A DNA stretch of 64,000 bases from Planktosalinus lacus (GTDB lineage Bacteria > Bacteroidota > Bacteroidia > Flavobacteriales > Flavobacteriaceae): positions 196,589 through 260,588 of the forward strand of contig NZ_BMGK01000002.1 of the NCBI RefSeq assembly GCF_014640155.1, read 5' to 3'. Both the position numbers and the translations under genes were made by a program. The notes under the pieces are model-generated. The model ran no database searches, was not told the origin of the DNA, and saw nothing but the letters and a program-made list of their open reading frames with translations. Below, piece by piece: positions 2,905 to 34,937 of this stretch; position 1 is the first letter of the stretch, and each line of letters starts with the position of its first letter.

Positions 2905-3420
2905 CCCCCCTTCTCCGCCTCAGGCGGATACGGAGGGTGAAAGGTTGACTGGTATGTAAATGAAGAATTAATAATGAATAATTAAAAATGACTTGATTGT
3001 TTCAAAATGGTCAACTCTGATCATGTAGGCTGTAGGCTGTAGGCTGTAGGCTGTAGGCAAAATAAAAATTAAGAAATAATCATAAATAATAGTCAACCTA
3101 TATCAGGGAAGTAAATGGTGGGTGATGGGTGATTAGTAATTAGTGATTAGTTTTTTAACACTAACCCCTAATCACTAATTACTAGTTACTTTTATCTGGT
3201 TGACTCCCTCCTTCTCCGCCTCAGGCGGATTCGGAGGGTGAAAGGTTTACTGGTATGTAAATGAAGAATTAATAATGAATAATTAAAAATGACTTGATTG
3301 TTTCAAAATGGTCAACTCTGATCATGTAGGCTGTAGGCTGTAGGCTGTAGGCTGTAGGCTGTAGGCTGTAGGCTGTAGGCTGTAGGCTGTAGGCAAAATA
3401 AAAATTAATAATGAAAAATT
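2905..3420. repeat. Directly duplicated composite repeat with 5 versus 10 TGTAGGC units
   Basis: Two near-identical segments start near 2905 and 3205. Each has a hairpin CTCCGCCTCAGGCGGA, then GAGGGTGAAAGGTT, an AT-rich 7-base-period stretch (GAAGAAT, TAATAAT, GAATAAT, TAAAAAT), TGGTCAACTCTGATCA, and a pure TGTAGGC run. The run has 5 copies in the first (3024-3058) and 10 in the second (3325-3394). A partial third copy lies at about 3440-3580 and related pieces at 17455-17530. GGTTGACT and AGTCAACC occur as inverted boundaries. There is no coding content. Confidence 0.8.
3129..3190. repeat. Heptanucleotide repeat folded into a long hairpin
   Basis: Units GTGATTA, GTAATTA and GTGATTA on the left are complementary to CTAATCA, CTAATTA and CTAGTTA on the right across a TTTTTTAACACTAACCC loop. 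A similar but more diverged copy is at 17385-17450. Confidence 0.7.
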
Positions 3421-4947: not shown

Positions 4948-5864
4948 ATTTGAAATTCCAAATTACAAGTACCCAACCTACAGTAAACTTTCCGCCTTGC
5001 GCTTCAAAGCTTCAAGCGACGAAGCGGTTGGCGAAGCAAATTCCAAATACCAAGTACCAAGCACCAAATTCCAAGCACCAAGTACCAAGCACCAAGTACC
5101 CAACCTACAGTAAACTTTCCGCCTTGCTCCGCCAAAAGGCGGATCCAGGGCGCCTACGCTATCCACCTTCTCCGCCTCAGGCGGATTCGGAGGATAAAAA
5201 GCTTCTGCGACAGCGTGCGACGAAGCGGTTGGCGAGGCAAATTACAAGTACCAAGTACCAAATTCCAAGCACCAAGCACCATACGAGGGCCCCGGCTGAA
5301 CTGAGCGTTAGCTAAATTCCAAACTTGTCTTCCGAAGCTTTAGCGTAGGGAGATTCCAAATTCCAAATACCAAATTCAAAACTCATAATTCCCCAAATAA
5401 TCCTTATTTTTAACCCCACCTTCTCCGCCTTTGACGGATACGGTGGGCGAAGCCCAAATCTGACAGTAACACCCTTGAAAGAAACTGATACCCCAGCCGC
5501 ACCCCTGTGTCCCTAAAGGGATCCACCGCGCATAAAAAATTCCAAATCTAAAACTCCAATCCCAAAACCCGCAAATCAACAAATATGCAAATTCGCAAAT
5601 CTGCAAATTCCAAGCACCACACGAGGCCCCCGGCTGAACTGAGCGTTAGCTATATTCCAATTTGTCACCCTGAGTTTATCGAAGGGCAAATTCCAAATAA
5701 GCCTAAAGCAAATTCAAAATTCAAAATTCAAAACTCATAATTCCCCAAATAAGCCTACAGCCTACTGCTTATAGCCTAAAGCTAATTCAAAATTCCAAAA
5801 ATCAAACTTTAAACCCGAAACCTTGAACCTTGAACTCTGAACCTTGAACCTTGAACCCAAAACC
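4948..5864. repeat. Non-coding block of 7-base-period repeats and GC-rich hairpins
   Basis: The block is built from ACCAAGT/ACCAAGC/AATTCCA units (5036-5105, 5240-5280), ATTCCAA and ATTCAAA units (5356-5392, 5715-5745), GCCTACA units (5753-5780) and ACCTTGA units (5809-5860), all at a 7-base period. Between them are CTCCGCC...GGCGGA hairpins near 5115-5200 and 5415-5445, and a 35-base stretch GGCTGAACTGAGCGTTAGCT present twice (about 5290 and 5630). ORFs in it are translations of the repeat. Confidence 0.75.
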
Positions 5865-31488: not shown

Positions 31489-31522
31489 AACCCTTCAAGG
31501 GTTCTAAACCCTTGAAGGGTTT
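31489..31522. repeat. Pair of CCCTTGAAGGG-type palindromes
   Basis: AACCCTTCAAGGGTT (31489-31503) and AAACCCTTGAAGGGTTT (31506-31522) lie side by side. They belong to the family around the RAYT gene at 34187-34837 but are 2.7 kb away, so they are a dispersed copy. Confidence 0.8.
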
Positions 31523-34096: not shown

Positions 34097-34937
34097 CAGA
34101 CCTTCAAGGTTTTTGAAACCTTGAAGGTCTGAGGGGTCTCAAAGATAAAGAATATTTTTTGTTGGACATCAACCCTTGAAGGGTTCTTAACCCTTCAAGG
34201 GTTGAGCTTGGGTTTGGAACCCTGAAAGGGTTAAATTGGATGGATATTTATGACAGTATTTAAAATGCTCCATATCTCCAAAATAATCGACTACTTCTTC
34301 CTTAAGTAGCGTGGGTGCATTTGAAGAAATAATGGATTTATAAGAACAATACTTCCATTCTTCAGCACGTTGAGTCAAGCCTGCTTTTATGGGGTTAAAA
34401 TGTATGTAGTGAATTAATTTCCTCAGGTAGTTTTCATCTGTAATCACCTTTCTTTTAAAGGTATGCATAAACAGGTTGCCTTTTCGGTTGTGTTGTTTGT
34501 TGAAGGCTTTTGCATATGCATTAAAGAAATTGCTGAATTGTCTGGAAATCAAACATTCAAGGTTTTTGAAACCTTGAAGGTTTGAGTTCGCTCTTTCAAT
34601 TTTATCTTTAAAATATTCATTTAAAACCGCTTCTTTTTTTACCCTCACCAAAAAATGAAAATGATTGGGCATTAAGCAATAGCAAAACGTGTCGACAATG
34701 GGAGAGATGTACTCATCGTATTTTTTAAGGAAGTACCGGTAATTATCGTCAGATAAAAACAACTGTTCGTTTCCGTTGGCACGATTGTAAATGTGGTAGG
34801 TGTTTTCCGGTTCCAGAATGGCTTTGGTGTCTTGCATCGTATAACCATTTAACCCTTGAAGGGTTGAGGTTGTTTGTGGTAATAAAAATAAAGAAAAGAT
34901 TTCAAACCTTCAAGGTTTTTTGAAACCTTGAAGGTTT
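34097..34937. repeat. CCTTGAAGG palindrome cluster around and inside the RAYT gene
   Basis: Members are at 34097-34131 (16-base arms, 3-base loop), 34171-34185 and 34189-34203 (AACCCTTGAAGGGTT and AACCCTTCAAGGGTT), 34218-34232, 34551-34583 (inside the coding sequence), 34851-34865 and 34904-34937. Two stem types, ACCCTT and ACCTT, recur, with centres TGAA or TCAA. The transposase stop codon is between the two palindromes of the 34171-34203 pair. Confidence 0.85.
34187..34837 (-). CDS. REP-associated tyrosine transposase (RAYT-type, HUH/Y1)
   Basis: This 216-residue protein has NTYHIYNRANGNEQLF at the start, the HUH motif CLMPNHFHFLVRV (His59, His61), the RAYT-typical NKQHNRKGNLFMHTFKRKVI and the catalytic Tyr144 in LRKLIHYIHFNPIKAG. 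Residues 85-96 (SNLQGFKNLECL) are encoded by a complete palindrome of its own repeat family. The last 16 residues (NLTLSGFQTQAQPLKG) also come from such palindromes, so the C-terminus has been rewritten. The core motifs remain intact. It is not closely related to the IS200-like protein at 22944. Confidence 0.9.
   Translation of the reverse strand: MQDTKAILEPENTYHIYNRANGNEQLFLSDDNYRYFLKKYDEYISPIVDTFCYCLMPNHFHFLVRVKKEAVLNEYFKDKIERANSNLQGFKNLECLISRQFSNFFNAYAKAFNKQHNRKGNLFMHTFKRKVITDENYLRKLIHYIHFNPIKAGLTQRAEEWKYCSYKSIISSNAPTLLKEEVVDYFGDMEHFKYCHKYPSNLTLSGFQTQAQPLKG

Follow-up and report, generated by a model that had tools for sequence, protein, structure and literature searches.

A 33-nt palindromic unit within the RAYT transposase gene of Planktosalinus lacus: repeated insertion in one loop and probable retention among Bacteroidota

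We have analysed a stretch of 64,000 nucleotides from Planktosalinus lacus (contig NZ_BMGK01000002.1), which we will call the window. In positions 34187–34837 of its minus strand there is an open reading frame of 216 aa, which codes for a transposase of the HUH-Y1 type (RAYT or TnpA_REP). Its HUH motif is H59-F60-H61; the catalytic tyrosine is, by homology, Y144 in the sequence YIHFNP. Y144 is invariant in 75 aligned rows, while H59, H61, N148 and P149 are nearly so. The protein has a score of 67.7 bits with the NCBIfam model NF047646 (REP_Tyr_transpos), whose curated cut-off is 80. Pfam gives no match at E 0.001; with E values up to 1, weak Y1_Tnp matches appear in 16 of 20 members of the family. 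A phmmer search with the window protein against PDB gives no match. A profile search with the family finds 4er8, the structure of E. coli TnpA_REP (E 1.3e-6), and the same structure is the top PDB match in Foldseek (E 2.9e-7) of an AlphaFold2 model built from 75 relatives, which shows a TnpA_REP fold. The mean pLDDT of this model is 90.7, falling below 50 in residues 210–216. A RAYT gene is expected to be flanked by REP-like palindromes with further copies elsewhere in the genome, and both are found here. The product of 34187–34837 is a RAYT, and it is the sole match to its own protein in the 2.97-Mb genome.

The palindromes around the gene are units of 33 nt with arms of 15 nt. One of them, with 15/15 pairs, is found downstream of the gene at 34098–34130. 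A second one (34171–34203, 15/15 pairs) gives residues 212–216 and the TAA stop codon; the RNA fold of 34169–34205 is predicted at −28 kcal/mol (z −7.8). Next to it, at 34218–34232, a degenerate single arm with two mismatches to AACCCTTSAAGGGTT corresponds to residues 202–207. About 15 C-terminal residues and the stop thus derive from palindromes, close to the 16 residues counted by the sequence-only reading; at this point most relatives end with ..TGI(E/N). On the other side, a lone arm with the exact sequence AACCCTTGAAGGGTT lies just upstream of the start codon (34851–34865), and a 34-nt unit with a 4-nt spacer and 15/15 pairs is placed between mnmA and the RAYT gene (34904–34937). Another 33-nt unit of the same family, also with 15/15 pairs, is intergenic, 2.6 kb away (31489–31521). 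The whole genome has eight exact copies besides the copy in the gene. The four copies found elsewhere in the genome lie between likely genes, as judged from lists of open reading frames, with one exception which ends a regulator-like frame. In this exception (L008:1501–1527, which is C11:80875–80901 in the same genome) a frame of 343 aa takes its final residues (..KPSRPQRP) and its TGA stop from a palindrome of the family; by eye the frame resembles an HTH/WYL-type regulator. The window also has four imperfect inverted repeats of another type, with a core like CTCCGCCTCAGGCGGA, outside the RAYT region (1889–1921, 2905–2937, 3206–3238 and 5415–5447).

The unit of most interest lies inside the gene, at 34551–34583 on the minus strand. 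It corresponds to nucleotides 255–287 of the coding sequence, SNLQGFKNLECL, and to residues 85–96. It is found in frame between the HUH motif and the catalytic tyrosine, as the sequence-only reading had it, and it belongs to the same family as the neighbouring palindromes, which was also part of that reading. The description of a complete palindrome is slightly too strong: the length is exactly 33 nt, but 14 of the 15 pairs around the 3-nt spacer are kept, and the broken pair gives LECL where relatives have LEGL. RNA folding predicts a hairpin of −12.1 kcal/mol (z −3.7) for it. The structural model has a helix in residues 77–86, a loop and a second helix in residues 93–115, with a mean pLDDT of 71 in residues 81–90. 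According to the model, residues 85–96 would form the β3–αC loop, that is the loop before αC and the first turn of αC, in agreement with the loop position proposed earlier. A comparison with relatives supports the view that these residues are an insertion: in Aequorivita and Pedobacter, among others, the loop is shorter and free of palindromes.

There is no support for an insertion which is recent, local or unique. In Mesonia (L011) and in loci L012 and L013 the identical codon junction is occupied by a unit, so that the insertion in this loop is probably older than the genus. A one-off invasion was rejected as well, since relatives share the in-gene palindrome. The same residues in homologues with no palindromes nearby had been named as a ground for refutation. 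L011 comes near to it: it has the same peptide, although the palindromes in its neighbourhood are of another type. In L011, however, the DNA which codes for this peptide is a perfect palindrome too; the insertion therefore stands and only its recent local origin falls.

Within the genus, two genomes (G003 and G004) have an S8 peptidase directly after mnmA and no RAYT: they represent an empty site of the whole RAYT. The RAYT cassette was therefore either gained at the window locus or lost in these two genomes. In a further genome of the genus, G002, a separate RAYT stands at another place, and its corresponding loop contains a CCCTTCAAGGG-type palindrome. The genus gave no empty site for the in-gene unit: three of five genomes have no match to the gene, and the loop of G002 is occupied. 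After mnmA, where other genomes have the S8 peptidase, G002 has a gene which by eye resembles the N-terminus of a type II Cas9 (L186:3141–4181), with palindrome remnants in between.

We have searched for related genes in a scan of species genomes and in 397 family, 395 class, 395 order and 148 genus genomes; these sets overlap in part. The matches listed gave 142 distinct RAYT frames, in which loci below the best 30 of each search are only partly included. We kept 124 full-length RAYTs for all counts, after removal of 18 frames which were incomplete or had a low coverage; the loci of a genus, g238, were analysed apart from the 142. An in-gene hairpin with a score of at least 12 is present in 40 of the 124 genes, while 20 codon shuffles gave 0–2 of 124 each. 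A looser definition, 33 nt with 12/15 pairs, gives 47/124 versus 0–10 in the shuffles. A scan at 11/15 pairs was left unused as too permissive (70/124). Practically all the palindromes occupy this loop: 39 of the 40 correspond to residues 73–95 of the window protein. L017 and L069 have a second copy near residue ~172, and L142 has its only in-gene palindrome at the C-terminus. In L142, as in the window, the overlapping unit at the 3' end supplies the stop codon of the RAYT. Hairpins in the flanks are found in 93 of the 124 RAYTs, less often when the gene has a unit (25/40) than when it does not (68/84; Fisher p 0.044). On a FastTree tree calculated without the loop columns, the presence of the palindrome is clustered (0/500 shuffles are as low), yet it requires at least 16 gain or loss changes, at least 6 of them forced by starred branches. 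The in-gene palindrome is thus inherited in some lineages, while in others it has come or gone on several occasions; this tree, the only one used, does not separate gain from loss. In Psychroflexus planctonicus (L023:5001–5789) the RAYT frame is interrupted between αC and the helix of the tyrosine.

The unit has a well defined anatomy. It measures exactly 33 nt, with a 15-nt arm, a free spacer of 3 nt and a second 15-nt arm, it starts with A and ends with T, and it equals 11 codons. Its ends are sharp. Pairing 16 nt from the centre is 0.82 in the flanks and 0.95 in the genes and drops to chance level, 0.22 and 0.33, at 17 nt; the pairing values are biased upward, since the units were found by their hairpin score. 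A unit begins with A and ends with T in 36 of 40 in-gene cases and in 139 of 179 flank cases; two even-length in-gene hairpins, those of L017 and L069, are omitted from these counts of 33-nt units. We detected no target duplication in the 179 flank units, where counts are close to those of shuffled sequences; of 362 feet examined, only 5 have GT[AG]G. With a length of 11 codons and no target duplication, insertion in frame into its own gene becomes easy.

Several features indicate that such insertions recur. The 40 in-gene units are read in phase 2 (31 cases) or phase 0 (9 cases); phase 1, though open in 26 of them, is never used. The same type of palindrome may appear in two frames, as NFSKVSNFGKV in L125 and TFPKFETLEKL in L014, which implies independent insertions. 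Palindromes which differ in type, and which are read in two frames, are found in the same loop, so that insertion has occurred repeatedly. By eye, the loop of L072 contains a decayed unit together with an intact one of a different type; L017 has two units and L073 one decayed unit.

The origin of the in-gene units may be judged from their likeness to neighbouring sequences. The likeness to their own flanks is 0.84, compared with 0.66 for other loci (24 loci, 0/20000 permutations); L142 was left out of this test, as its unit overlaps its own 3' flank. The own flanks rank first for 14 of the 24 units and fall outside the first three for 7 of them. The genome G1146 has 54 forward matches to the family, with up to two mismatches, versus none in the control. 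The RAYT gene of this genome has one copy in frame, and the 21 sampled copies outside it are all free of any open frame of more than 150 aa.

We will now consider whether the unit is kept once inserted. In genus g238 the same codons contain the unit, or what is left of it, in 16 orthologues: nine are perfect, six decayed and one half deleted. The last case is L166, where 18 nt between CAAG repeats have been deleted and half of the palindrome is gone from the loop, a loss which keeps the frame. In the arms the synonymous difference rate is 0.099, versus 0.280 in random codon sets (3/2000 are as low). Lysine is coded by AAG at 28 of 29 arm sites and at 44 of 223 sites elsewhere, while the spacer codon is the most variable one, with 0.473 differences per site. 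When all nucleotide differences are counted, the contrast is moderate, with 0.123 in the arms and 0.176 in the rest of the gene, and the arms take rank 32 among 194 windows, because decayed copies are included. We found no compensatory change of a pair among the 16 orthologues. Nor is there any clear relation between intactness and the number of REP copies: the nine genomes with an intact unit have 5–54 matches and the seven with a decayed one 5–25.

A second group is formed by L125, L040, L088 and L091. Their proteins have 62–80% identity. In the arms only 0–2 of 30 positions differ, where the remainder of the gene would predict 6.6–11.2, and in the spacer 0–3 of 3 positions differ. The sole change in the arms is a compensatory one, from a C-G to a T-A pair. 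The genomes of this clade (G533, G026, G782 and G664) have one match to the unit each; in all, ten genomes were searched, of which six have one match and four have 3–12, counts which refer to draft genomes and to one pattern with up to two mismatches. In L125, L088, L091 and L134, moreover, the surrounding DNA examined has no further unit of the in-gene type. The clade of the window shows a weaker contrast, with a synonymous rate of 0.214 versus 0.503. The sequence-only reading considered the insertion as tolerated; with two groups of relatives conserving the unit at the nucleotide level, this term is probably too weak. From these comparisons we infer that selection may be the cause of arm retention in the two orthologue groups.

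Pairing is also maintained between families. In 34 distinct in-gene units, 98.2% of the cells pair and 12 of the 15 pairs change on both sides. The first figure is inflated, as the units were selected as hairpins; the set also pools different palindrome families, so that it shows pairing across families and not events within a lineage. None of 500 shuffles reproduces this covariation, and versions slid along the sequence are at most 65% paired. L142 and L143 are outside this set.

Our preferred interpretation, to which we assign a probability of about 0.6, is that a 33-nt REP-like unit inserts recurrently into a permissive loop of the RAYT and is then retained as a nucleic acid element, probably as a putative cis site. 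As the sequences show, the unit leaves no detectable target duplication, so that it adds 11 codons and keeps the frame. The loop between β3, which carries the HUH motif, and αC accepts it, and the clustering of units around the RAYT gene would help repeated insertion. From one RAYT to another, this loop has received palindromes of different types, read in two of the three frames and in some cases one after the other. After insertion the unit would often be kept as a DNA or RNA hairpin: in two groups of orthologues the arms are constrained at synonymous sites and the spacer drifts, even in genomes where we found no other copy of that type. It might be a cis site for the RAYT, either as an autoregulatory hairpin in the gene or its mRNA, or as a copy of the substrate linked to the enzyme. 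The case for retention is weakened by the decay seen in 7 of the 16 orthologues of g238 and by the broken pair in the window: since those seven are decayed or half deleted, the unit is dispensable in g238, as judged from its sequences, and with one pair already broken the window copy may be in an early stage of decay. A stronger version, which we hold tentatively and at rather less than even odds, is that the palindrome has become a domesticated, dual-coding part of the gene, in which the recognition site of the enzyme has moved into its own reading frame. Selection would keep it there, either for autoregulation through the hairpin or because it is a heritable master copy. Such a master copy would keep enzyme and substrate linked when the flanking REPs are lost.

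A simpler possibility is that the insertions are purely tolerated and refreshed: REPs would land near the RAYT by a preference in cis, those in the loop would survive, and the identity of the arms would be due to recent re-insertion or conversion from genomic copies. The units do cluster around RAYT genes, as the hairpins in the flanks of 93 of 124 show, they were inserted serially in L072 and L017, they mostly match their own flanks, and they decay in 7 of the 16 orthologues of g238. We nevertheless consider this account unlikely. Searches of G026, G533, G664 and G782 gave no donor copy. Moreover, the second pair is A-G..C-T in all nine perfect units of g238, whereas the 21 sampled genomic copies of one genome, G1146, are split into 11 AT, 6 AG and 4 AC, a difference that speaks against replacement at random. 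Perfect arms and compensatory changes would also result if the hairpin directed its own correction, by template switching in a quasi-palindrome, with no selection at all. We give this mechanism little credence, as it equalises the two arms within a copy but not between species, while the arms of orthologous genes are nearly identical; the 16 orthologues of g238 have no compensatory change either. Selection could act instead on the encoded peptide, for example as a DNA-contact loop, with the palindrome as a by-product. One peptide type (..LQGFxNLEGL..) does recur in the same frame, but the conserved sites are the synonymous ones, the two frames give unrelated peptides and, within the core of the model, confidence is lowest in the loop; we find this explanation very improbable. 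There remains a chance origin of hairpins in AT-rich coding sequences. L068 has one AT-rich hairpin which looks like such a case; as a general explanation, chance is refuted by the presence of hairpins in 40 of 124 genes compared with 0–2 in the codon shuffles.

The recurrent self-insertion that we favour may be compared with other palindromes found in genes. In Rickettsia palindromic elements (RPE) a palindromic sequence is present in frame in many unrelated proteins; RPE-1 is longer than the unit described here. To our knowledge RPEs have no transposase of their own. They share with our unit the insertion of a palindrome in frame in a protein, but they affect many unrelated genes, while the 21 copies sampled in G1146 outside the RAYT are all outside open frames of more than 150 aa.

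REPs within genes have been described in other systems. Di Nocera et al. 2013 (PMC3733652), who also mention the Rickettsia elements, report intragenic GTAG/CGTC REPs, REP termini used as stop codons and some RAYT-like genes flanked by self-complementary (TIR) repeats. All these features have a parallel in our family, but the REPs of that study are found in many unrelated genes, while our sampled copies are extragenic except for the one in the RAYT itself. Closest to our case are the tnpA_REP genes of subclass 2.4 (RAYT group 4) in Quentin et al. 2018 (PMC6006769), which have REPs in frame, generally between HuH and Y and away from the active site, in a variable β3–αC extension modelled as peripheral. 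Such self-invasion had been considered unusual in the sequence-only reading; given these published genes, in-frame self-insertion of a REP is a known kind of event. There are differences in detail. The REPs of subclass 2.4 have a GT[AG]G foot, which may be double, and its proteins have WQ and YIxNNP, while here we find a 33-nt unit with no such foot (5/362), F-M at the position of W-Q, and YIHxNP. The window family lacks the signatures of subclass 2.4 that were tested; the two may overlap. Subclass 2.6 (group 5) is also found in Bacteroidetes and has atypical palindromes without GT[AG]G, but it is described with WQ and with an insertion of 21 aa between αC and β4, both absent here: in the model of the window protein αC covers residues 93–115 and the next strand 128–132, with no extra domain of that size, and F-M again stands at W-Q. 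The window family fits none of the listed subclasses fully.

New features are the exact 33-nt unit with neither target duplication nor GT[AG]G foot, its recurrent insertion in one loop and the conservation of its arms at the nucleotide level. In the literature searched, none of the entries listed shows an in-gene REP retained at the nucleotide level. The exact length of 33 nt also indicates at which ends a cutting enzyme would have to act. Recoding the arms with synonymous codons would separate the protein from the DNA or RNA element and would tell whether the RAYT needs or senses a copy in cis. The relation between RAYTs and REPs is unsettled, and a RAYT which conserves its own palindrome within its reading frame, sometimes as the sole copy found in the genome, bears directly on it.
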